DNA of 64,000 nucleotides from Staphylococcus shinii. Lineage in GTDB: Bacteria; Bacillota; Bacilli; Staphylococcales; Staphylococcaceae. Numbering within the stretch: the stretch's first letter is position 1; each line of letters begins with the position of its first letter. Positions 49,065 to 60,038 of the stretch are shown in pieces. The notes under the pieces were generated by a model, which saw nothing but the letters and a program-made list of their open reading frames with translations, had not been told where the DNA came from and made no database searches. The position numbers were made by a program, and so were the translations under genes. The stretch covers positions 310,001 to 374,000 of the forward strand of contig NZ_JAGEVL010000003.1 of NCBI RefSeq assembly GCF_017583065.1, given 5' to 3'.

Positions 49065-49544
49065 ATGAAGATTACGATACTAACAGTAGGTAAATTAAAA
49101 GAAAAATACTGGAAACAAGCAATCGCAGAATATGAAAAACGTTTAGGAGCATACTCCAAAATTGAAGTTATAGAAGTGCCTGACGAAAAAGCACCTGAAA
49201 ATATGAGCGATAAAGAAGTTGAACAGGTTAAAGAAAAAGAAGGTCAACGCTTACTAGCAAAAGTAAAACCTCAGTCAACTGTCATAACGCTTGAAATCAA
49301 AGGCAATATGTTGACGTCTGAAGGATTAGCTAAAGAAATAGAAGGACGAATGACTAGAGGACAAAGTGACTTCACCTTTATTATTGGTGGATCCAACGGC
49401 TTACATAAAGACGTGCTAAACCGCAGCGATTATGCATTATCATTCAGTAAAATGACCTTCCCACACCAAATGATGCGCGTCATATTGATAGAGCAAATAT
49501 ATCGTGCATTTAAAATTATGCGAGGAGAAGCATATCATAAATGA
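49065..49544 (+). CDS. rlmH: 23S rRNA pseudouridine1915 N3-methyltransferase RlmH
   Basis: 159 residues, SPOUT-class methyltransferase (orfX of the SCC literature). The trefoil-knot SAM site is Phe-Ile-Ile-Gly-Gly-Ser-Asn-Gly-Leu (about 104-112) and the C-terminus reads Arg-Gly-Glu-Ala-Tyr-His-Lys. Its last 18 bases are the SCC attachment site, which is retained in frame after integration, so the protein is intact. Confidence 0.96.
49527..49544 (+). repeat. SCC attachment site 1 (in rlmH)
   Basis: GAAGCATATCATAAATGA, the last codons of rlmH; this is the Ccr recombinase target and marks the chromosome-cassette junction. Confidence 0.9.
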
Positions 49545-49748: not shown

Positions 49749-49983
49749 TGCGGTTTTTATAAGGTTCTTCTTATTGGTGAAATTGTTAAAAAAACAAAAT
49801 GCAATGAATTGACAAATTAAAATCGCTTTAAGTCGTATTCTCAAAGAATCTATAAATCACTCGTATGTACACAGCCCCTTACTATCAGTTAAAGTGTCAC
49901 TTTTCGGTTCTAATATTTATTATTCATAAGATATGCAATATATGATACAATTCATTCAAATGTATATTTGAATGAGGTGCTCT
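49749..49983. other. Left end of the SCC before cadD
   Basis: AT-rich, no ORF of note; its right end carries the cadD operator (49953-49974). Confidence 0.5.
49953..49974 (+). promoter_or_regulatory. CadC/CadX-type operator before cadD
   Basis: A 10-2-10 palindrome with arms CATTCAAATG/A and ATATTTGAATG, next to the cadD ribosome site. It has the TCAAAT...ATTTGA pattern of the classical pI258 cad operator as I recall it. Binding by the ArsR-type protein of 50620 would repress until Cd(II) is bound. Confidence 0.75.
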
Positions 49984-50601
49984 ATGGTTCAGACTATTAT
50001 AACTGCGGCAATACTTTATATTGCAACTGCGGTAGATTTATTAGTGATTTTATTAATATTTTTTGCTAGAGCAAAGACTAGAAAAGAATATAGGGATATT
50101 TATATAGGTCAATATTTAGGATCGATTATCCTCATATTAGTCAGTTTATTTTTAGCTTTTGTGTTAAATTATGTTCCAGAGAAATGGATATTAGGTTTAT
50201 TAGGTTTGATCCCCATCTACTTAGGTATAAAAGTTGCTATTTATGATGATTGTGAAGGTGAAAAAAGAGCAAAAAAAGAATTAAACGAAAAAGGTTTGTC
50301 CAAATTAGTAGGGACTGTTTCTTTAGTGACAATTGCAAGTTGTGGTGCAGATAATATTGGTTTATTTGTCCCTTATTTTGTAGCATTGGATATTATTGAA
50401 TTACTGACTACCTTAATTGTATTTTTAGTTTTAATTTTCTTTTTAGTATTCACAGCACAAAAACTAGCTAGAATTCCTGGTGTGGGTGAAATTGTTGAGA
50501 AATTCAGTCGTTGGATTATGGCTGTTATTTACATAGCATTGGGCTTATTTATTATTATTGAAAATGAAACCATACAAACGATATTAGGATTTATATTATA
50601 A
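49984..50601 (+). CDS. cadD: Cadmium resistance transporter CadD
   Basis: A 205-residue membrane protein with about five to six helices, starting MVQTIITAAILYIATAVD, as in CadD of staphylococcal plasmids. The family (LysE superfamily) gives cadmium and some zinc resistance. ATG at 49984 has GAGGTG upstream; four extra in-frame codons are upstream without a ribosome site. Followed after 18 bp by its regulator. Confidence 0.9.
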   Translation: MVQTIITAAILYIATAVDLLVILLIFFARAKTRKEYRDIYIGQYLGSIILILVSLFLAFVLNYVPEKWILGLLGLIPIYLGIKVAIYDDCEGEKRAKKELNEKGLSKLVGTVSLVTIASCGADNIGLFVPYFVALDIIELLTTLIVFLVLIFFLVFTAQKLARIPGVGEIVEKFSRWIMAVIYIALGLFIIIENETIQTILGFIL

Positions 50602-50619
50602 ATTAAGGTGTGACTTAAT

Positions 50620-50961
50620 ATGAGTAACAATAAAATTTGTGACGTCATTTGTGTTCATGAGGAAAAAGTGAATTATGCTTTAAGATTTTTAAAAGAAGAA
50701 AAAACTCAACGGCTTATCAATACATTATTAAAGATAAGTGATGAGAATAAGCTGAAAATTATATTAGCTCTAATTAAAGAGAAAGAATTATGTGTTTGTG
50801 ACTTATCTATAACATTAGGTTTGAGTATAGCTTCAACATCACATCATTTGAGAGCTCTGTATAAAAGAGACGTGCTGGATTTTTACAAGGATGGGAAAAT
50901 GGCATACTATTATATCAAAGATATAGAAATGAAATCATTATTAATAAAATGTATGACTTAA
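50620..50961 (+). CDS. cadX: CadX/CadC-type ArsR-family metal-sensing repressor
   Basis: A 113-residue winged-helix repressor. The metal-binding Glu-Leu-Cys-Val-Cys-Asp motif (about residues 56-61) lies in the recognition region, with an extra N-terminal Cys (Lys-Ile-Cys-Asp-Val-Ile-Cys) as in CadC. It should bind the palindrome before cadD. Convergent with arsC across a shared terminator. Confidence 0.87.
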   Translation: MSNNKICDVICVHEEKVNYALRFLKEEKTQRLINTLLKISDENKLKIILALIKEKELCVCDLSITLGLSIASTSHHLRALYKRDVLDFYKDGKMAYYYIKDIEMKSLLIKCMT

Positions 50962-50965
50962 ATAT

Positions 50966-50998
50966 AAAGAAACGCTCACATTAAACGAGCGTTTCTTT
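50966..50998. terminator. Bidirectional terminator shared by cadX and arsC
   Basis: Perfect 12-bp stem, arms AAAGAAACGCTC and GAGCGTTTCTTT. The last codons of arsC are encoded inside the stem. Confidence 0.88.
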
Positions 50999-51382
50999 GA
51001 ATTCTTGTATTCTTTTTCCAATTTCATCTCTAACACGTTGAAATTCTGGCCATTCTTTTCCTGCTGGATCATCAAAGCCCCAGTGTTCTTTTTTAACATT
51101 AGGTGGTAATATAGGGCAATTATCGTCTGCATCACTACATAATGTTACGACCAAAGCTGACTGTTCTAAGATATCACTATCAATCAAATCTGATGTATGG
51201 TTTGAGATATCAATATCCACTTCTTTCATAGCTTCTATTGCTTTAGGATTAACACCATGTGTTTCAATACCAGCAGAATAGACATTCCAATCTTCACCCA
51301 ATATTTCTTTTCCCCAACCTTCAGCCATTTGGCTACGACAAGAGTTTCCTGTACATATAAAATAAATTGTTTTCTTATCCAT
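50981..51382 (-). CDS. arsC: Thioredoxin-dependent arsenate reductase
   Basis: 133 residues, low-molecular-weight-phosphatase fold. The P-loop is Cys-Thr-Gly-Asn-Ser-Cys-Arg-Ser (Cys10, Cys15), and the redox pair is in [11 protein letters not shown] (Cys82, Cys89). It reduces arsenate to arsenite for export by ArsB. The last six codons lie in the terminator hairpin, and the tail Phe-Lys-Glu-Thr-Leu-Val differs from the S. aureus enzyme that I recall. Confidence 0.95.
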
Positions 51383-51399
51383 AATTAAAGCCTCTTTTC

Positions 51400-52689
51400 T
51401 TAAAATATGATTAGTGTAAGGTATAAACCTAAGAGTGTTACAAATAGGACCGGAATAGTAATGATAATTCCAGTTTTAAAGTATGTTCCCCACGAAATTT
51501 TCACACCTTTTTGTGTTAAGACATGTAGCCACAATAATGTTGCTAAAGAACCAATCGGTGTTATTTTAGGTCCTAAATCAGAACCTATGACATTCGCATA
51601 AACCATACCTTCTTTAATTGTTCCAACTACATTCGATTGTCCGATAGCAATTGCATCTATTAAAACTGTAGGCATATTATTCATAATTGATGATAACAAA
51701 GCAGATATAAAGCCCATGCCCATAACACTACTGAATAGTCCATAACTTGAAATATTGGATAATGCATCAGCTAAAATTGTGGTGATGCCTACGTTTTTCA
51801 AGCCGAATACGACTAAATACATACCAATTGAAAATAGGACAATATTCCATGGTGCACCTTTAATTACTTGTTTCGTATGCACAGCTTCGGAATTGCGAGC
51901 TAACAGTACAAAGATAATAGCAATAATACCAGCAATGATTGATACAGGGATTTGAATAAACTCACTAACAAGATAACCCACAAGTAGTATTGCTAATACA
52001 ATCCATGAAATCTTAAATAATTTAGAATCTTTAATTGCATTTTTAGGATGTGAAAGATTTTCTGTATCGAACGTTTTAGGTATAGATTTTCTGAAATATA
52101 ACCATAAAACGAGAATACTAGCAATCAGAGAGAATATATTAGGAATAATCATTCGACTAAAATATTCAATAAATCCAATATCGAAGTAATCTGCAGAAAC
52201 GATATTAACTAAGTTACTTACAATTAAGGGTAGTGATGTAGTATCAGCGATAAAGCCACTGGCAATGATGAATGGGAAAATAACTTTTTTATTAAACCCT
52301 AGATTTCTTACCATCGCTAATACAATAGGAGTTAAGATTAAAGCCGCACCATCATTTGCGAAAAATGCTGCTACAATTGCCCCAAGTAACATAATAAAAA
52401 CAAACATTTTTAAGCCATTACCGTTTGAAGCCTTGACCATATGTATTGCAGACCATTCAAAAAAACCAATTTCATCTAATATTAATGAAATTAGAATAAC
52501 AGCTACAAAAGTTAAAGTTGCATTCCAAACAATACCGGTTACTTCTAATACATCGGAAAAACTTACGACTCCTGTAAAGATAGCAACAACAGCTCCAATT
52601 AAAGCTGTAATACCAATATCTAAACCTTTTGGTTGCCATATCACAAAGATTAAAGTTAACAAGAAGATTATAATTGCTAAAATGGTCAT
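51400..52689 (-). CDS. arsB: Arsenite efflux pump ArsB
   Basis: A 429-residue protein of about 12 membrane helices, with [12 protein letters not shown] near residue 110, the ArsB/NhaD ion-transporter signature. Exports arsenite and antimonite. The ATG at 52689 overlaps the arsR stop (TGATG), which gives coupled translation. Confidence 0.95.
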
Positions 52690-53003
52690 CAACAGTCACC
52701 TGATTTCACATTTTTACATACACATCTTTGATTAGATGTATTAATGATGTTTAAGTTTTGAATAATATCATCTAAAATAGCATGATTATGTTGATACCAA
52801 TGTTTGTTGCCGTCTTTTCGTGTTGTAACTAATTCGTTATCTACTAATGACTTCATATGATGACTTAGTGTAGGTTGTGAGAATTGAAAGTGTTCTAATA
52901 AGTCACAAGCGCATAGCTCACCACAAGAAAGTAAATCTAATATTTCTAACCTGCTTGGATCTGATAAAACTTTTAATATTGCTGATAATTCTTTATAAGA
53001 CAT
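52689..53003 (-). CDS. arsR: Arsenical resistance repressor ArsR (first copy)
   Basis: 104 residues with Glu-Leu-Cys-Ala-Cys-Asp-Leu-Leu (about 29-36), the arsenite-binding site in the recognition helix. Cys residues also cluster at the C-terminus (Cys-Val-Cys-Lys...Asp-Cys). Autorepressor of arsRBC. Ribosome site AAAGGAGGT. It is clearly different from the second ArsR at 53442. Confidence 0.92.
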
Positions 53004-53026
53004 AAATAATACCTCCTTTTCATTAC

Positions 53027-53042
53027 ATAGATTAACATCTAT
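53027..53042 (-). promoter_or_regulatory. Candidate operator of arsRBC
   Basis: ATAGAT-TAAC-ATCTAT palindrome 24 bp before arsR. Its sequence differs from the ATCAA-N6-TTGAT sites of the neighbouring unit, so the two ArsR proteins probably do not share targets. Confidence 0.6.
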
Positions 53043-53153
53043 ATAGTTTTATGTCTATGTAGTTTTTTGACTAATTTTAGTATTAGATTAGAATGCGTCC
53101 TAAATAACTAGTTTTATTATCTTGCAAAAGTTGAAATAATAATTTATATTTAA

Positions 53154-53175
53154 TACATCAAAAAAAATTGATGTA
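53154..53175 (+). promoter_or_regulatory. Operator 1 of the second arsenical unit
   Basis: Palindrome TACATCAA-N6-TTGATGTA before the 66-aa ORF. Its core ATCAA-N6-TTGAT recurs twice before the permease gene. Confidence 0.7.
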
Positions 53176-53208
53176 TCATTTTAGTATTTTATAAAGGAGT
53201 TCGATTTT

Positions 53209-53409
53209 ATGAGAATAAATCATGCAAGTACATTATCTGTTGATTATTTTGTTAGCTACTTAAATCTAATTATGATATCAAGAGAAGTTTCTTTAAAAGA
53301 AGCTATATCATATATGAAAAATGAATTCTTTAAAGGAGAACCTGACATGTATGGTAAAATAACAGAAACTCATTTTAATCAAGCAATACAAGAACTCAAA
53401 CAAAAATAG
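53209..53409 (+). CDS. 66-residue protein of the second arsenical unit, function unknown
   Basis: Preceded by AAAGGAG and the ATCAA-N6-TTGAT operator, so it is a real, regulated gene. The protein is mostly helical, contains no Cys and no membrane segment, and has Tyr-Met-Lys-Asn-Glu-Phe-Phe near its middle. It precedes the second arsR by 32 bp. I do not recognise the family. Lack of Cys makes it unlikely to bind arsenic itself. Confidence 0.7.
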   Translation: MRINHASTLSVDYFVSYLNLIMISREVSLKEAISYMKNEFFKGEPDMYGKITETHFNQAIQELKQK

Positions 53410-53441
53410 AAATATCTATATATAAGAGAGGTGATTATTTA

Positions 53442-53762
53442 ATGGAAATTATTAAGTCCAGTCCTAATAGAAGTGAGGAAGAAAAATTAGACTTTTATGA
53501 ACAGATGTTTAATGCGCTAGCTGATAAAATCAGGCTTAAAATTCTACAATCAATACGTCAAAGCGATTCAAAATCTTTATGTGTTTGTGATCTAGAAGAA
53601 TTATTAGCGTTAAAACAATCTAAACTTTCCTATCATTTAAAAAAATTAGTAGATGCAAATATTCTTATTGCTGAAAAGCATGGCACATGGAATTATTATA
53701 AAATTAATGAGCAACAAATACAGGTGGTTTTAAATGAAGATACTTGCTGTAAGATACTTTAA
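53442..53762 (+). CDS. Second ArsR-family repressor, with C-terminal Cys pair
   Basis: A 106-residue winged helix with Leu-Cys-Val-Cys-Asp-Leu-Glu-Glu (about residues 46-53) and a C-terminal Thr-Cys-Cys-Lys. A late vicinal Cys pair is known in some ArsR proteins of other bacteria that sense As(III) or methylarsenite. Its likely targets are the three ATCAA-N6-TTGAT operators around it. A palindrome AAGATAC/GTATCTT overlaps its stop and may end transcription. Confidence 0.83.
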   Translation: MEIIKSSPNRSEEEKLDFYEQMFNALADKIRLKILQSIRQSDSKSLCVCDLEELLALKQSKLSYHLKKLVDANILIAEKHGTWNYYKINEQQIQVVLNEDTCCKIL

Positions 53763-53783
53763 GTATCTTCTTTATAACATAGA

Positions 53784-53807
53784 ATTAATCAAATTTTTTT
53801 GATTAAT
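53784..53807 (+). promoter_or_regulatory. Operator 2 of the second arsenical unit
   Basis: Perfect palindrome ATTAATCAA-N6-TTGATTAAT between the second arsR and the permease. Confidence 0.7.
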
Positions 53808-53809
53808 AC

Positions 53810-53825
53810 ATCAAGAAAAGTTGAT
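53810..53825 (+). promoter_or_regulatory. Operator 3 of the second arsenical unit
   Basis: ATCAA-N6-TTGAT centred 22 bp (two helical turns) from operator 2, just before the permease ribosome site. The spacing fits cooperative binding on one DNA face. Confidence 0.7.
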
Positions 53826-53851
53826 TAAATGAATTCGGAGGCGTTATACTA

Positions 53852-54736
53852 ATGATAGATTCAATTATGGAATTCATAAAAACATTTCTGATGTTATTTT
53901 TTGAATTATTATTACTATTTATAGTAGTGAGTTTTATAGTAAGTCTGATTCAACAAGTTGTATCAGAAGAAAAAATTAAAAAGCTTTTGAGCAAACCTAA
54001 TAAAGCTGTCAATTACATATTAGGTATGGTGTTTGGTGCTGTTACACCATTTTGTTCTTGTTCAACTATTCCAATACTTGCAGGTCTATTAAATTCCAAA
54101 GTTCCTTTTGGTCCGGCTATGAGTTTTTTGATTGCTTCACCATTAATGAACCTATTAATGATATTTATGTTATGGGCTTTATTAGGATGGAAAGTAGCCA
54201 TTGTTTATTTTGTAGTACTAGCAATTTTCAGTATTTTAACAGGTTTAGTATTTTCAAAAATGAATTTAGCTGAAAGTTATAAAGGGGTCAATGTTAAAGG
54301 TGATGGCTTTTTTGCTAATAAAACAGGATCTCGTTTTAAACAAGCATTAAACGATGCGTGGGCATTTTTATACCCAATGTTACCTTATCTATTTATTGGT
54401 GTATTTATTGGTGCCTTTATATATGGATTCATACCTGAAGAATTTATAACTAAGTATGCAAGTGGTGATGGTTTTATATCGGTGTTTATTGCTTCTGTTA
54501 TCGGTATCCCTATGTATATCAGACCAGAAACAATGTTACCTATAGCCGAAGCATTAGTATCAAAAGGTATGTCGCTAGGAACAGTAGTTGCATTAATAAT
54601 TGGTGGTGCTGGCGCAAGTATTCCAGAGGTCGTATTGCTATCTAAGCTATTCAAGAAAAAATTTGTAATATCATTCATTATTGCAATTTTAATTGTAGCC
54701 ATTGCTACAGGTTTGATTGTGAATATCATTATTTAA
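53852..54736 (+). CDS. ArsP/DUF318-type permease, probable organoarsenical exporter
   Basis: A 294-residue protein with about eight helices. It carries Thr-Pro-Phe-Cys-Ser-Cys-Ser (about residues 65-71), the cysteine motif of the DUF318 permease family that includes ArsP. ArsP exports trivalent organoarsenicals such as methylarsenite. The second helical bundle has Gly-Ile-Pro-Met-Tyr-Ile-Arg-Pro-Glu near residue 220. Control by ArsR-type operators and adjacency to arsRBC support an arsenical role; thiol or other metalloid substrates are possible. Confidence 0.8.
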   Translation: MIDSIMEFIKTFLMLFFELLLLFIVVSFIVSLIQQVVSEEKIKKLLSKPNKAVNYILGMVFGAVTPFCSCSTIPILAGLLNSKVPFGPAMSFLIASPLMNLLMIFMLWALLGWKVAIVYFVVLAIFSILTGLVFSKMNLAESYKGVNVKGDGFFANKTGSRFKQALNDAWAFLYPMLPYLFIGVFIGAFIYGFIPEEFITKYASGDGFISVFIASVIGIPMYIRPETMLPIAEALVSKGMSLGTVVALIIGGAGASIPEVVLLSKLFKKKFVISFIIAILIVAIATGLIVNIII

Positions 54737-54749
54737 AGGAGGTGAAATA

Positions 54750-54887
54750 ATGGGTATTAAAGACGCATTAAAAAAAATAAAACCTCAAGAACAGTCATGT
54801 TGTTCGGTAGAAATTGAGGAAAAGAACGAAAAAAAAGAAAAAGATGAAAAAGAGCAAGAAGATAATAACAATTGCTGTAACAAGTAA
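54750..54887 (+). CDS. 45-residue charged protein with two Cys-Cys pairs
   Basis: Starts with a perfect AAAGGAGGTGAAATA ribosome site 13 bp after the permease stop. The N-terminus is basic (MGIKDALKKIK); Cys17-Cys18 and Cys42-Cys43 flank a run rich in Glu and Lys (residues 21-38). No membrane segment. I know no named family. I infer a small cytoplasmic metalloid-binding partner or chaperone of the permease. Followed at once by a terminator. Confidence 0.75.
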   Translation: MGIKDALKKIKPQEQSCCSVEIEEKNEKKEKDEKEQEDNNNCCNK

Positions 54888-54890
54888 TAT

Positions 54891-54919
54891 AAGGGCCTGG
54901 AATTTATATCCAGGCCCTT
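54891..54919 (+). terminator. Terminator of the second arsenical unit
   Basis: Perfect 11-bp stem, arms AAGGGCCTGGA and TCCAGGCCCTT. Confidence 0.8.
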
Positions 54920-55020
54920 ATATTAATCTATTTTGCTACGCTTTTCTATATTTATTCTACAATAATTAAAAAAGGACATATTTTGAAATCAATGTGTCTT
55001 TGAAAATGGTTACCTCTATA

Positions 55021-55200
55021 TTATGCTTTGATTTCTACAGGTTCACTAAAGTGATTTTCTATAATTCTTGTTATTTCTTTACCTAGTGGTCCTTTTATTG
55101 TGAAAGTTCTTTTGAAATAAGAACCTAAAATACCTAGACCTGCTGCTGCACCGACACCTTTTCCAATGCCTTTGCCTATCGTTTTTATGATGTTACTCAT
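55021..55200 (-). CDS. Small hypothetical protein with Gly-rich amphipathic helix
   Basis: 59 residues from the ATG at 55200 (AAAGGA 9 bp upstream; frame open to 55218). The N-terminal half alternates Gly and Lys then Gly-Ala (Ile-Gly-Lys-Gly-Ile-Gly-Lys-Gly-Val-Gly-Ala), which could form a membrane-inserting or glycine-zipper helix; the rest is polar. I do not recognise it. Confidence 0.55.
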   Translation of the reverse strand: MSNIIKTIGKGIGKGVGAAAGLGILGSYFKRTFTIKGPLGKEITRIIENHFSEPVEIKA

Positions 55201-55256
55201 GATTATCATTCCTTTCATTATAATTAATATTATTTGTAAAACATTGTCTGCTTGGT

Positions 55257-56033
55257 TTACTTTTGAACTTGTTGTTTTAAATATGTTAATTGTAGTAAAA
55301 GTAATTCATCAATCACTTGTTCTCTTAAATCAGGGGGTGAAATGATACGTATATTGGATTGATATATAAAACGGAGTTGAATAGCTTCGACTCTTGTCAT
55401 CTTGAAAGTGACAATAAGATAATGTGCATCATATTTTTCTATTACATGAATTTGATAAAATCGATGCATTTTTGACCACACATCTTTACCGATTTAAAAC
55501 GTGATATAGGTTTGTAACTTTGATTTTTCTTGTATATCCACGGATTTTTCAGACAAACTCAGATTCATTTGATTAATATCATCTATATAAATTTCATTCA
55601 TTGCGCGAACAACTAATGATGCTGGCAAAATACCTGTTTGATTTTTATCAATTTCAAAGCGGTCAAGATATTTTAGTAATGTAGTTCGATGACCTGAATG
55701 ATGTTTGATGATTAATAATTTAAGATATTGATAAAAGTAATGACTTAATTTGGGTGTCGTCAGGTATAAAGCAGTCAAAATATCATACATAAAATGCATA
55801 TTTTCATGCTTATCTTGTTCGAGCTTATAACTTTCTGATTTATAATCGTACGTGATTGCTTTAGGTGTACTGATCCACGATTTACTTTCATATAAGAAGT
55901 TTCTGGTATCGTCGATATCTCTTTGTATCGTCCTAGGACTCGTATTGAGTTCTAATGTAAGTGATTGTTTGTTGACGGATTTATTCTGTAGTAAACGATG
56001 GTATATTGTTAATATTCGAAATGCACGATCCAA
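55257..56033 (-). pseudogene. HTH/WYL-domain regulator interrupted by one in-frame stop
   Basis: Residues 1-60 form a DeoR/YafY-type helix-turn-helix (Ser-Pro-Arg-Thr-Ile-Gln-Arg-Asp-Ile), preceded by an excellent ribosome site AAAGGAGGTGA and a TTG start. At 55494-55496 a TAA stops the frame after 179 codons. The same frame then runs on without a gap for 78 more codons to 55257, giving the expected WYL C-terminus (Tyr-Leu-Ile-Val-Thr-Phe-Lys). One substitution explains this. It may be inactive or yield a truncated DNA-binding protein. Confidence 0.8.
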
Positions 56034-56202: not shown

Positions 56203-56649
56203 CTATACCTCTACTTTTAAATTATGTTTTCTAATGGAATAGGCGTTACTATTTGAGAAAATAACATGGTCATAAAATAAAATGCCCATCATTTCACTGA
56301 TGAGCATTAATCGTTCGGTCACATTGATATCTTCATGAGAGGGTGTTACATCTCCACTTGGATGGTTATGTCCTAGCATAATACTGTTGGCGTTACTGAG
56401 CATCGCTGTTTTGAATGTTTCTCTGGGGTGAATCACTGTTTGGTTAATAGAACCTATCGATAGTGTTTGAATATGTGTAGTTTCGTTTTTACTATTCATA
56501 CATATAAGTATGAGATGTTCTCGATCACTGTTTCCAATGAATGAACGCATAATTTCTGTCGCATCCCCAGGGTTTGAAATACGATTTTTTAGATAATTTA
56601 ATGTATCTGTTTTTATCATTTGTAGTGAAACAATATTGATTTCTTTCAT
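56203..56649 (-). CDS. RadC-like JAB-domain protein
   Basis: 148 residues with Gly-His-Asn-His-Pro-Ser-Gly-Asp (about 96-103), and Asp107/Asp110 further on, the metal site of the JAB/MPN metalloprotease fold found in RadC proteins. Such proteins are standard cargo of SCC elements and other mobile DNA; the role is not established. Ribosome site GGAGGTAAACG. Confidence 0.85.
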   Translation of the reverse strand: MKEINIVSLQMIKTDTLNYLKNRISNPGDATEIMRSFIGNSDREHLILICMNSKNETTHIQTLSIGSINQTVIHPRETFKTAMLSNANSIMLGHNHPSGDVTPSHEDINVTERLMLISEMMGILFYDHVIFSNSNAYSIRKHNLKVEV

Positions 56650-56669
56650 CGTTTACCTCCATATATGGG

Positions 56670-57176
56670 TTATGCTTTCAAAGTCCATTTCTGTCTTGCT
56701 TTTGGATTAAGGGGGTGCATAATTTCATTGGTTACTGGGTTCATGAGTTGTTTCACTTTCGTCTTATGTGGTTTCAACATCTCTAATACTTCATTGACAC
56801 GTGCTTCAACAACGGGCTTTTTAGCGTAAGCACCCCAGGCTAATATTACTTCATCCGATTCTTTCACTGCCTTCATAATTTGAATATCGGTATGATTATC
56901 ATAGGCGTTTTCTAGATGTTTGAGATTGAGGGGTGTTGTAATATTGGAATATAGATTCACAAAATTGATTGAGCCAAATGCATCCATTTCTGAAACTTTG
57001 TTCATAATGAGCTGAGTTGTTAAGTCTATACGAAGAAGGCCCATAAAATTTGGATACATTGTAATGATTGTAAGTGTTTGTTTTTCACTGTCCCATGTTT
57101 TCTTAAGTAGATAGCGATGTTGTTGGTCATCACTGAATATGGCTTCAGTTTCTAATGTATTTTTTATTGTTTTCAT
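56670..57176 (-). CDS. DUF1643-family SCC protein
   Basis: 168 residues with the DUF1643 features Met-Tyr-Pro-Asn (about 40-43), Ile-Asn-Phe-Val-Asn-Leu-Tyr (about 70-76) and Val-Ile-Leu-Ala-Trp-Gly-Ala-Tyr (about 109-116). Conserved downstream of ccr in SCC elements; function unknown. It follows the DUF960 gene by 15 bp. Confidence 0.85.
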   Translation of the reverse strand: MKTIKNTLETEAIFSDDQQHRYLLKKTWDSEKQTLTIITMYPNFMGLLRIDLTTQLIMNKVSEMDAFGSINFVNLYSNITTPLNLKHLENAYDNHTDIQIMKAVKESDEVILAWGAYAKKPVVEARVNEVLEMLKPHKTKVKQLMNPVTNEIMHPLNPKARQKWTLKA

Positions 57177-57191
57177 GTAATATTCACTCCT

Positions 57192-57503
57192 CTAGTATTC
57201 TTCTGGTAATAACATGACGTAATAAGAAAGGTCTACATCATCTTCTCGGATAATGTAGACCTTATTGATATCGATAGACTGTTTGACATTTGCCTTATGC
57301 GTTTTGACATACTCAGGACGTTCTTGTTTGTGTTTGATATATAGTTGGTTATTTTGCATATTGAATTGGAATATATGAAAATAATCCAATGATTCCTTGC
57401 CTTTTGATTGTGTTTGTTCTCGTCGTGCTACAAGTTGCCATAATTGTTTTTGTAAGATGATAGGTAAGCTATTGGCAATACCACGAGTGATATATCTATT
57501 CAT
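57192..57503 (-). CDS. DUF960-family SCC protein
   Basis: 103 residues: Arg-Tyr-Ile-Thr-Arg-Gly-Ile near the start, then Leu-Trp-Gln-Leu-Val and Asp-Tyr-Phe-His-Ile-Phe-Gln (about 40-46). Typical of the SCC block after ccrB. Function unknown. The start overlaps the stop of a 33-residue ORF. Confidence 0.85.
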   Translation of the reverse strand: MNRYITRGIANSLPIILQKQLWQLVARREQTQSKGKESLDYFHIFQFNMQNNQLYIKHKQERPEYVKTHKANVKQSIDINKVYIIREDDVDLSYYVMLLPEEY

Positions 57504-57597
57504 AAGAGATCTCCTTTCGTTCTGATTCTTTCATCCATGTAATGATTTCGCTTAGGATAGTGATTGCTAATTGTGTTAGTTTGATATATTTATGCAT
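57496..57597 (-). CDS. 33-residue ORF overlapping the DUF960 gene
   Basis: Starts with GGAGGACAATAAT before ATG (57597) and ends in TAG inside the DUF960 start region (8-bp overlap). The peptide begins MHKYIKLTQLAITILSE: a short hydrophobic amphipathic helix, then a charged tail. The DUF960 ribosome site lies in its last codons, so it may be a coupling leader peptide or a small membrane peptide. Confidence 0.55.
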   Translation of the reverse strand: MHKYIKLTQLAITILSEIITWMKESERKEISYE

Positions 57598-57598
57598 A

Positions 57599-57937
57599 TT
57601 ATTGTCCTCCTGTTAGTAAGTATCGTTGATCTAAAAGGGGCATGATAGTGTTGTGTAGATATAAGAAATCCATATCATGGTTTTCATCAATATAGCCAAT
57701 GGCTATGAGCTGTTTCTGATAGTAGAGAATGAAAGGGTAGATATTACTTTCGTGAAGTGTATCAGAGTAGTAGGTGTAGGTTTGAAGTATTTTATTACTG
57801 AGTGGCCCAAGCCTTACATATTGGTCAGGTAAGATATGATCAGCGATTTCCTCGATAGATTCACATTCCCACTTTTCATCTTTTGGCAGTTTGAATAAGT
57901 TGGTTATATAGTGCTTGAGTTGTTGTTCCAATGTCAT
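57599..57937 (-). CDS. Uracil-DNA glycosylase inhibitor SAUGI
   Basis: A 112-residue acidic protein starting MTLEQQLKHYITNLFKLP, which matches SAUGI (S. aureus) and its S. saprophyticus homologue as I remember them. SAUGI mimics DNA and blocks uracil-DNA glycosylase. It is encoded beside ccrB in many SCC elements and may protect a replicating or recombining cassette from base-excision breaks. Ribosome site GGAGGTCATAACA. Confidence 0.9.
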   Translation of the reverse strand: MTLEQQLKHYITNLFKLPKDEKWECESIEEIADHILPDQYVRLGPLSNKILQTYTYYSDTLHESNIYPFILYYQKQLIAIGYIDENHDMDFLYLHNTIMPLLDQRYLLTGGQ

Positions 57938-58110
57938 TGTTATGACCTCCTAATGTGTTTGATGGATGTATGCATGTGATACATCATTTTGATAATATAA
58001 GTTTTAAATACCATTTGTTTCGCCTAGAAATCCCACTGAAATACAGAAAAGATCCCAATAGAAAGTCGTCACAATTGTTGATATAACAAGGAAATCCCGT
58101 TATCCCGCTC

Positions 58111-58124
58111 ATTTCTCGGGAAAT
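58111..58124 (+). promoter_or_regulatory. Noc-binding-site-like sequence in the SCC
   Basis: ATTTCTCGGGAAAT differs by one base from ATTTCCCGGGAAAT, the site bound by Bacillus Noc. It is in the non-coding block after ccrB. Binding by the Noc of 4554-5390 is an inference. Confidence 0.45.
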
Positions 58125-58220
58125 ATAGCTATATATTTATATATCATTTGGATTTGGTGGTGTTATTACGACTTATTTTTCTTTTTATATTATTTATTTA
58201 TAAATAATAACGGGATTTTG

Positions 58221-58240
58221 GGATTACGCTTGCGTAATCC
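58221..58240 (+). repeat. Perfect 9-bp hairpin in the SCC iteron block
   Basis: Arms GGATTACGC and GCGTAATCC with a TT loop, no T-run after it, so it is not an ordinary terminator. Confidence 0.7.
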
Positions 58241-58409
58241 TTCTCCTACATGAAGTTAGCCAATCCCGTTACTATCCCACTTATATTTTGTTTTGGGATG
58301 TTCTTTCGTCATATCAATATAAGCTTCACATTGAGTTATGACTTGTTAGTATGTTGAAAAGATTCGTTAGATGGGTGTTATTGAATGACGAAAGGACAGT
58401 ACATAGATA

Positions 58410-60038
58410 TTAAATTTGAAAGTAGAGTGTTTGAGGCAAAAATAAAGACGAAGTGCTGAGGAGCACTTCGTCTAGATTATTATTATTGAAAAGTTGTTTA
58501 ATAATTTCATTATTAAGTTTTAGTGTAACGTAGAATTGCTTTTTATGATTCTCATCTTTACGAATGTCAATACGGTCAATAACCGTTAGGTACAAAGCTT
58601 TGAGCTGTGATTTATCCATGGATTCTATATTTTGAAATATTCGTTGTAATAAAGCAACGATTTGTTTAGTATCATAAGATGGTTTCTCTTGATTTTGTTG
58701 CTGCTTGAGTTGATTCATTTGGTTTGTGATATCATTCAGTTGTGTTTCATATTGATGAATGGTTGGTTTGAGTGCAGATGTTAAGTCTGGATTGTCTTCG
58801 ATGGTTTGAATTAGATTTTTAAGTTTAGTGTTAATTTCATCAAATTGTTGTTGTTTATAAGCAATATCATGGTTAAGTGCAACTACATCGACTTGATTCT
58901 CTTGATTGACACGTTCGACAACTTGTTTGAGAACTTTATCACTTTTGACAATTTCAAGTATTTGGTCCATAACATATTTTTCAATGACATCGGCTCTAAC
59001 ACTATTCGCAGAACATACCTTTGAGCCTTTATTTCGAAAATTACTACACGAATAGTAGCGGATGCGTTTCTTTGTCCCATCTTTGAGTGTATTAGTAGTA
59101 TTACTCGCGGCCATAGGTGCTCCGCATTGGGGACAATGAACGATACCTGTTAATAGATTAGTTCCTTTACCGTGAACTTGGGGTTTTTGACTGACTTGCT
59201 TTTTACGTGCTTGCACTTTATCCCATAATGCTTGGCTAATAATAGGGGCGTGCTTACCCTCAGCTATGATCGGTTTATCATTCAGTCCTTTACGACGTTT
59301 TTCATTCCAATCTTTGTACTTCGCAAATTGAATTTTACCCATATAGAAAGGATTGGATAGAATATAAGTAATAGAACTTATACTGAAAGGCTTCCCTTTT
59401 TTAGTGACATAGCCTTTATGATTTAGTGTATTGGCAATTTTACGATAGCCATGCCCTTTGGCATAAGATTCGAAAATATATTTTACAATATTAGCTTCAT
59501 GTTGATTAATCATCAATTCGTGTTTACTGTCGGGTATTTTGTCATAGCCTAGCGGTAAATTTCCTTGATAATAGCCTTCTTGGGCACGTCTGGTTTGGCC
59601 CATGAATACGTTCTCGACAATGTTATTACGTTCGAATTCTGAGAAACTCGCAAGTATTTGTAACATGAGTTTACCAGAAGAAGTATTGACTTCCATACGT
59701 TCAGACAAACTGAAAAATTCGACATTTTGCTTATGCAAATCTTCGACAATTTTGAGTAAGTCTGATGTATTACGTGCCAGTCGGTTTGTTTTGTACACCA
59801 TGACACAATCGATATGACCTTCATTCGCATCCTTCAACATACGTTGGAGCTCAGGACGGTTCATAGATTTTCCTGAGATACCACGATCAGCGTAAATATC
59901 TGTGACTTCAAAATGGTGAAATTGACAGTAGTCTCTAATCTGATTGATTTGGCCATTAATACTATAACCTTCTGTATTTTGGATTTCAGTCGATACACGG
60001 ACATAGATACCGACACGTTTTTGTTTGAGTTGTTGCAT
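58410..60038 (-). CDS. ccrB: Cassette chromosome recombinase CcrB
   Basis: A 542-residue large serine recombinase. The catalytic domain has Tyr-Val-Arg-Val-Ser-Thr (nucleophile Ser16) and Arg-Leu-Ala-Arg-Asn (about 87-91). A recombinase domain and a zinc ribbon (Cys-Pro-Gln-Cys near 309, then Cys-Ser...Cys near 344-353) follow, then a coiled coil (about 380-450). With CcrA it inserts and excises the cassette at rlmH. Length is normal and no break is seen. Starts 20 bp after ccrA. Confidence 0.95.
   Translation of the reverse strand: MQQLKQKRVGIYVRVSTEIQNTEGYSINGQINQIRDYCQFHHFEVTDIYADRGISGKSMNRPELQRMLKDANEGHIDCVMVYKTNRLARNTSDLLKIVEDLHKQNVEFFSLSERMEVNTSSGKLMLQILASFSEFERNNIVENVFMGQTRRAQEGYYQGNLPLGYDKIPDSKHELMINQHEANIVKYIFESYAKGHGYRKIANTLNHKGYVTKKGKPFSISSITYILSNPFYMGKIQFAKYKDWNEKRRKGLNDKPIIAEGKHAPIISQALWDKVQARKKQVSQKPQVHGKGTNLLTGIVHCPQCGAPMAASNTTNTLKDGTKKRIRYYSCSNFRNKGSKVCSANSVRADVIEKYVMDQILEIVKSDKVLKQVVERVNQENQVDVVALNHDIAYKQQQFDEINTKLKNLIQTIEDNPDLTSALKPTIHQYETQLNDITNQMNQLKQQQNQEKPSYDTKQIVALLQRIFQNIESMDKSQLKALYLTVIDRIDIRKDENHKKQFYVTLKLNNEIIKQLFNNNNLDEVLLSTSSLFLPQTLYFQI

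Follow-up and report, generated by a model that had tools for sequence, protein, structure and literature searches.

Beside the arsRBC genes of Staphylococcus shinii lies a second arsenical-type unit, and the question it raises is whether the two small proteins encoded there are genuine components and what they might do. The unit was analysed in a 64,000-nucleotide (nt) stretch of contig NZ_JAGEVL010000003.1 (positions 310,001 to 374,000; hereafter the window, numbered from its first nucleotide). On the + strand it reads operator, gene for a protein of 66 amino acids (aa), repressor gene (arsR2), two operators, ArsP_1 permease gene and 45-aa gene, and it is flanked by the divergent arsRBC genes (50981-53003, - strand) and a hairpin at 54885-54925. 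A first-pass annotation had put the unit forward as its main candidate for an undescribed system. That claim had to be given up, since the accessible part of a staphylococcal cassette chromosome (SCC) paper (PMC3900703) lists it as SHP0095-SHP0098, without names. The locus itself is mobile, common and already listed; what is new is the 45-aa protein. No description of a cysteine-pair mini-protein beside arsP was found in the literature searched, subscription papers lying mostly outside its reach.

A mini-protein family tied to one kind of ArsP

The 45-aa gene (54750..54887, + strand) encodes a basic N-terminal segment, a CC-S-V-E-I-E-E core, an acidic linker and a second CC pair. The protein belongs to no Pfam or NCBIfam family; searches of both gave no match at E<=0.1, hence no recognisable ArsD domain. 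For comparison, 26 related unit loci were defined by an ArsR2 at least 70% identical or by the presence of the 66-aa protein. They comprised 22 fetched stretches, L066, L069 and plasmids L033 and L034; L101/L033 and L105/L034 are apparently near-identical pairs, all of which were counted. L103 and L116 stop at contig edges, leaving 24 loci that contain the permease, and the 45-aa gene was present in all 24. The median ratio of nonsynonymous to synonymous substitution (dN/dS) was 0.24 for the 45-aa gene, 0.28 for the 66-aa gene, 0.10 for ArsR2 and 0.07 for ArsP; the first two values suggest that both small open reading frames (ORFs) are genes. Chance ORFs would fit their shortness and the low-complexity linker, but this explanation is already contradicted by the dN/dS values, by a CC core common to several phyla and by the conserved position, and we give it almost no credence.

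As a homology-search query, the 45-aa protein had matches in 9 of 398 Bacilli genomes, all of the window's genus; the resulting idea of a family confined to that genus was overturned by the DNA that follows permease genes. Searching with a profile of 30 members returned 60 proteins, of which the source-named ones were mostly annotated as hypothetical. In the Bacilli survey (55 ArsP_1 loci from 52 of the 398 genomes), downstream ORFs were screened for the motif CC-x-[VIFL]-x-[IFVM]. A mini-protein ORF followed the permease in 41 of the 42 loci with a phmmer score of at least 175 to the window permease (window locus included), mostly beginning 13-120 nt past the permease stop; the one locus without it, L158, has a permease ORF that is shortened. 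By contrast, only one of the 13 lower-scoring loci had a mini-protein (L171, with a truncated permease); these 13 mostly represent another PF03773 group, of 315-350 aa. ArsP and mini-protein occurred together in ten named Bacilli genera, including one genome named Bacillus piscicola (L193). Leaving ars-operon membership apart, the Bacilli ArsP loci with this helper, L193 among them, bear on the statement in the accessible text of PMC12607644 that arsP has not been detected in the ars operons of any Bacillus species.

A wider survey, of loci with organism names, took the best-matching 80 of 502 relatives, 79 of them with at least 400 nt downstream. A mini-protein was found in 50 of the 79: 42 proximal, six far and two variants (L211 and L239) assigned by inspection. 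One further far match (L223) was dropped as an unrelated membrane protein. In the opposite-strand control, 15 motif ORFs occurred in 650,549 nt, equivalent to 0.6 expected in the 79 downstream intervals. The hosts included Clostridia, Marinifilum, Ancylomarina, Labilibaculum, a Mesotoga and Photorhabdus, with one each from Omnitrophica, Poribacteria, Synergistaceae and a euryarchaeal metagenome-assembled genome.

Over 79 distinct members the core was CC-[SDN]-[VI]-[EK]-I-E-E, and glutamate at the eighth core position, which lies outside the screen, was present in 69. The 14 residues before the CC carried a net positive charge in 71 members and the stretch after it a net negative charge in 67. 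The number of CC pairs ranged from one to five, with tandem CC modules in L134, L156, L159 and L255; the L255 protein, encoded after a Cupriavidus plasmid ArsP, is 89 aa long and holds three copies. Beside ArsP, the module was also fused N-terminally to Thioredoxin_3 (L208, L209 and, as a CSC variant, L239) and to DUF2703 (L207). Eight stand-alone members were scanned and none reached a Pfam cut-off; Galaxin_repeat scores of 20.2, 24.2, 23.0 and 18.8 bits against a cut-off of 28 were put down to CC composition.

The mini-proteins form a family that shows purifying selection within the staphylococcal set and is linked to one kind of ArsP. The evidence supports the earlier proposal of the 45-aa protein as a new component, the protein being kept with the permease in the staphylococcal units and far beyond them. 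This gives meaning to staphylococcal cassette and plasmid genes now annotated as hypothetical protein or alcohol dehydrogenase.

Other small or fused proteins were seen at some of these loci. In L153 (2878-3237) the mini-protein was joined to a domain resembling carboxymuconolactone decarboxylase (16.8 bits against a cut-off of 23), and L140 had a similar ORF, standing separately. A second small protein of 55-63 aa with a C-terminal CC was encoded upstream of arsP in L131, L132, L135, L142, L144 and L171, and downstream of it in L148.

The ArsP permease and its loop cysteines

The window permease (53852..54736, + strand; motif TPFCSCS) scored 214.7 bits against PF03773 over residues 5-291, well above the gathering score of 32.3. 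Residues T65, P66, F67, C68 and C70 were invariant in 30 permease sequences and C68-S69-C70 in a set of 22, placing a C(S/T)C motif within TPFCSCST. A C(S/T)C preceded by TPF is given as the 'cluster 2' signature in the part of PMC4435449 that was available. By its family, the permease would export an arsenical. An ion-transporter-type elevator fold was predicted (AlphaFold model, mean pLDDT 80.2); a PDB sequence search with the permease profile gave nothing better than E 0.2. The SaoE efflux transporter model (NF040736; 119.6 bits against a curated cut-off of 325, E 1.7e-34) and the SO_0444 Cu/Zn efflux model (NF033936; 114.3 bits against 300, E 6.6e-33) share its superfamily, but it scored far below both cut-offs and is a member of neither. 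It belongs to the same PF03773 family as the organoarsenical efflux ArsPs, yet is accompanied by a mini-protein.

The loop between transmembrane helices 4 and 5 (TM4-TM5) is free of cysteine in the window permease and holds the only segment of at least three residues with pLDDT below 50 (149-156); its Lys/Arg content suggests that it is cytosolic. Many ArsPs without a mini-protein carry cysteines in this loop, some as CC arrays. Among L199-L254 (a set that includes L220, L221 and L252), at least one loop cysteine was present in 20 of 30 ArsPs without a mini-protein and in 6 of 26 with one (Fisher p 0.0014, relatedness ignored). Among plasmid ArsPs (nine examined of 1000 matching records), those without a mini-protein had a Cys-rich hydrophilic TM4-TM5 insertion in seven of eight cases (L256-L261 and L263), with one to four CC pairs in six of the seven. 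The proteobacterial plasmid ArsPs examined differ in this insertion from the window ArsP, whose loop is without it. The eighth, L262, was the most distant plasmid ArsP (33% identity to the query), had neither trait and was followed by a thioredoxin-family gene. An insertion of roughly 100 aa between TM4 and TM5 had already been noted in PMC2963123, the accessible text of which mentions neither its cysteine content nor a separate counterpart, and which also notes ArsPs labelled Sha and Sep.

The distribution was also placed on a tree of 122 permeases, from which truncated or duplicate loci and those without downstream room had been left off (L121, L157, L158, L159, L167, L171, L173, L174, L187, L190, L220, L221 and L252). 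On it, 6 permeases had both mini-protein and loop cysteine, 80 the mini-protein only, 18 the loop cysteine only and 18 neither, nine of these last belonging to the other permease group. Of seven independent pairs, 3.1 differed in opposite directions, 0.1 in the same direction and 3.7 showed no difference.

A possible carrier role for the mini-protein

Taken together, linkage to ArsP, CC conservation, repeat expansion, the Thioredoxin_3 fusion and the in-cis counterpart suggest that the 45-aa protein could be a flexible vicinal-dithiol carrier that feeds ArsP within an ArsR-repressed arsenical efflux unit, a reading to which we give an even chance. The basic N-terminal segment would keep the mini-protein close to the permease or to the inner face of the membrane, and every CC pair would take up one arsenical, which would then be handed to the CSC site of ArsP. 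The carrier function might be supplied either in trans, by the mini-protein, or in cis, by the loop cysteines of ArsP. The broader proposition is held more tentatively, at a little short of even: that ArsP-dedicated dithiol carriers exist across phyla, are interchangeable with the TM4-TM5 cysteine array and represent an unrecognised thiol hand-off in organoarsenical export. A small conserved partner and in-permease cysteine arrays make the route of trivalent organoarsenicals, which are tight thiol binders, to ArsP directly testable.

The closest known parallel is the ArsD metallochaperone. Both proteins have a vicinal CC as presumed arsenic ligand and a gene beside an arsenical pump, but ArsD is 115-129 aa long, whereas the mini-protein has 45 aa without a domain match and is encoded beside ArsP rather than ArsA.

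The same features could describe a cytosolic arsenic sponge, a metallothionein-like buffer from which no ligand passes to the permease. The variation from one to five CC pairs, the tandem arrays, the acidic flexible sequence and the persistence of the 45-aa gene beside permease remnants would all suit a sponge. We nevertheless regard it as unlikely, as four cysteines per 45 aa offer a small capacity, and as both the coupling to one kind of ArsP (41/42 versus 1/13) and the CC arrays that other ArsPs carry in their loop point to a transporter role. Alternatively, the mini-protein might be a regulatory or assembly subunit whose CC pairs sense an arsenical or the redox state and gate ArsP. Small size, a basic N-terminus, the Thioredoxin_3 fusions and a gene adjoining the permease are compatible with this, but expansion of the CC module is more readily explained by ligand capacity, and we consider such a subunit improbable.

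Several observations weigh against the carrier reading. A single CC was found in 22 of the 79 members and cysteines outside pairs in 17, and the membrane role of the N-terminus is a guess from charge. On staphylococcal plasmids H22-H28 and H32, no more than a remnant of the permease accompanies the 45-aa gene (judged from match extent, three being inspected), indicating that the pair is separable. As the wider survey took the best 80 of 502 relatives, its mini-protein share is not that of all ArsPs. With respect to the loop cysteines, 10 of the 30 ArsPs scored without a mini-protein lacked these as well; L252, one of the 20 with a loop cysteine, has 38 nt downstream, which makes its mini-protein unjudgeable; and some loop matches are single cysteines, present too in the mini-protein sisters L209, L210 and L215. 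Finally, the tree-aware exchange between cis and trans ran in the expected direction and was not significant (median p 0.25) because independent pairs were too few.

Operators and repressor

The pattern ATCAA-N6-TTGAT had three exact matches in the 64 kb, at 53157, 53788 and 53810. Only 0.28 sites were expected from shuffled sequence, and none of 100 shuffles reached three. Operator 1 (ATCAAAAAAAATTGAT, 53157..53172, + strand) lies 5' of the 66-aa gene, and operators 2 (ATCAAATTTTTTTGAT, 53788..53803, + strand) and 3 (ATCAAGAAAAGTTGAT, 53810..53825, + strand) lie in the gap between arsR2 and the permease gene, spaced 22 bp, as first described. An operator preceded arsR or the 66-aa gene in all 26 unit loci at no more than one mismatch (24 exact), an exact operator occupied the arsR-permease gap in all 26, and 18 had two there at no more than one mismatch. 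The flanks of these loci held no exact site in 211,019 positions. Where the 66-aa gene is absent, the operator adjoins arsR in five of six loci (L104 and L109-L112), and in the sixth, L102, it remains 304 nt upstream.

ArsR2 (53442..53762, + strand) scored 79.6 bits against the ArsR/SmtB model NF033788 (curated cut-off 55) and carries C47-V-C49 and C102-C103. The four cysteines were present in all 26 homologues and numbered 47/49/102/103 in 23. ArsR2 matches the ArsR/SmtB repressors with an alpha-3 CVC and a C-terminal CC, both conserved, and is distinguished by having both Cys sites. A repressor from Shewanella that is selective for methylarsenite, MAs(III), carries a Cys pair in its C-terminal part. 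ArsR2 dimers would occupy one operator before the 66-aa gene and arsR2 and two before the permease and mini-protein genes, and trivalent arsenic at C47/C49 and C102/C103 would free the repressor, as the cysteine pattern and operator placement suggest.

The arsRBC genes have another dyad, ATAGA-N6-TCTAT, at 53027, with a one-mismatch copy at 53043 (span 53027-53058). It shares the 5-N6-5 design of the ArsR2 operator, with other half-sites. At one mismatch the pattern occurred five times in the window against 4.8 expected; being no rarer than chance, the arsRBC dyad is backed by position alone. The shared operators and ArsR2 support a putative regulon separate from arsRBC, in agreement with the first-pass annotation, whose 66-aa ORF, ArsR with a Cys pair, ArsP permease and 45-aa Cys-pair ORF were likewise recovered. 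Promoter-like sites in 52950-55000 numbered 16 against 14.9 in shuffles; since they were no commoner, no promoter is claimed.

Neighbouring genes and the probable substrate

An ArsM-like methyltransferase gene lies between the permease and 45-aa genes in 8 of the 26 loci, the window not among them, the L069, L099 and L100 copies being split or truncated. The best two NCBIfam matches of the L033 copy are ArsM models. Its product (P0174) contains an N-terminal CC, DYGCGDP, SNCV.NL and GC.SGA, the conserved Cys motifs of ArsM. Its scores fell below both cut-offs (NF040538, 350.9 against 500; NF008823, 194.6 against 263), which counts against an organoarsenical assignment. In the Bacilli loci L079 and L082, an ArsN1-family gene stands beside the ArsP and 66-aa genes, and that of L082 scored 221.8 bits against NF040503 (cut-off 170). 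The two thiols of a CC pair suit trivalent arsenicals that are monosubstituted and so have two exchangeable sites. The ArsM-like gene within the unit and the ArsN1-type neighbours make organoarsenical handling likelier, and sensing and export of organoarsenicals by the unit is plausible. Judging from family and neighbours, ArsP would most likely export a trivalent organoarsenical such as methylarsenite. According to the available text of PMC11653729, arsM has co-evolved with arsP, and arsP confers MMAs(III) resistance on Escherichia coli; that of PMC12607644 cites MAs(III) and Rox(III) as published ArsP substrates.

A somewhat unlikely alternative, with evidence of its own, is that the unit handles As(III)/Sb(III) in inorganic form, or some other soft metal, and that ArsP backs up ArsB. 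The best PDB sequence matches of ArsR2 were Lmo1102, an arsenic repressor (6j0e) and the cadmium repressor CadC; the unit frequently adjoins arsRBC or arsDA; the related PF03773 models are named for Cu/Zn or Sao efflux, albeit with scores below cut-off; and a MerT-like protein with CC arrays, under the Pfam cut-off, is encoded upstream of two Bacteroidota ArsPs (L224 and L228). In L233, a MerT-like protein was recognised by its N-terminus. The ArsM-like and ArsN1-type genes, the cited substrates and the two-thiol pairs argue instead for organoarsenicals.

A MarR-type regulator with NCC, RCC, KCC or QCC near its N-terminus preceded arsP in 13 of the 21 loci L129-L149. It also occurred in L071, L072 and L084, and it fronts arsenic flavoprotein clusters; the copies scanned (L071 and L084) reached no NCBIfam cut-off.

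The 66-aa protein

The 66-aa ORF (sm66; 53209..53409, + strand) is free of cysteine and matched no Pfam or NCBIfam family. An ORF of this type was present in 20 of the 26 loci, shortened in L069 (53 aa), L095 (47 aa) and L098 (52 aa), and homologues often occur without ArsP. The first-pass annotation had proposed both small proteins as possible new components. This is upheld for the 45-aa protein; the 66-aa protein is real and arsenic-linked but dispensable. Its model was predicted to have four helices and a fold like that of YvfG of Bacillus subtilis (PDB 2gsv, 9a4s), a fold similarity only and not significant (Foldseek E 2.5). No sequence relation to YvfG was found: a sequence search of the PDB with the profile of the 66-aa protein gave no match at E<=10.

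In L070, L075 and L077, pstS and a homologue of the 66-aa gene are divergently oriented, a hint that phosphate and arsenate may be linked here. An NAD(P)/FAD-binding protein with N-terminal Cys pairs adjoins the 66-aa gene in L032 (4201-5607), L067, L073, L081 and L084. The L032 protein scored 44.9 of the 425 bits set for ArsO; this kind of protein may represent a further arsenic enzyme that carries a thiol tag.

Genomic setting

The window comes from a genome of 3.02 Mb. At least 80% of the unit was covered in 20 plasmid records by DNA search, and its DNA relatives were mostly from Staphylococcus (30 of 36 plasmid records). The phage records searched had no match to the unit, and Rfam had none in 52600-55300. 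The hairpin closing the unit (54885..54925, + strand; 17 pairs) resembles an intrinsic terminator. With rlmH at 49065-49544 (SPOUT_MTase) and a large serine recombinase at 58410-60038, the region looks like a staphylococcal cassette region. Upstream of the unit, 49972-50961 encodes a cadmium transporter of the CadD type together with a regulator of the ArsR family. Downstream, 56203-60038 encodes RadC, DUF1643, DUF960, SAUGI and the serine recombinase, as in staphylococcal cassettes.

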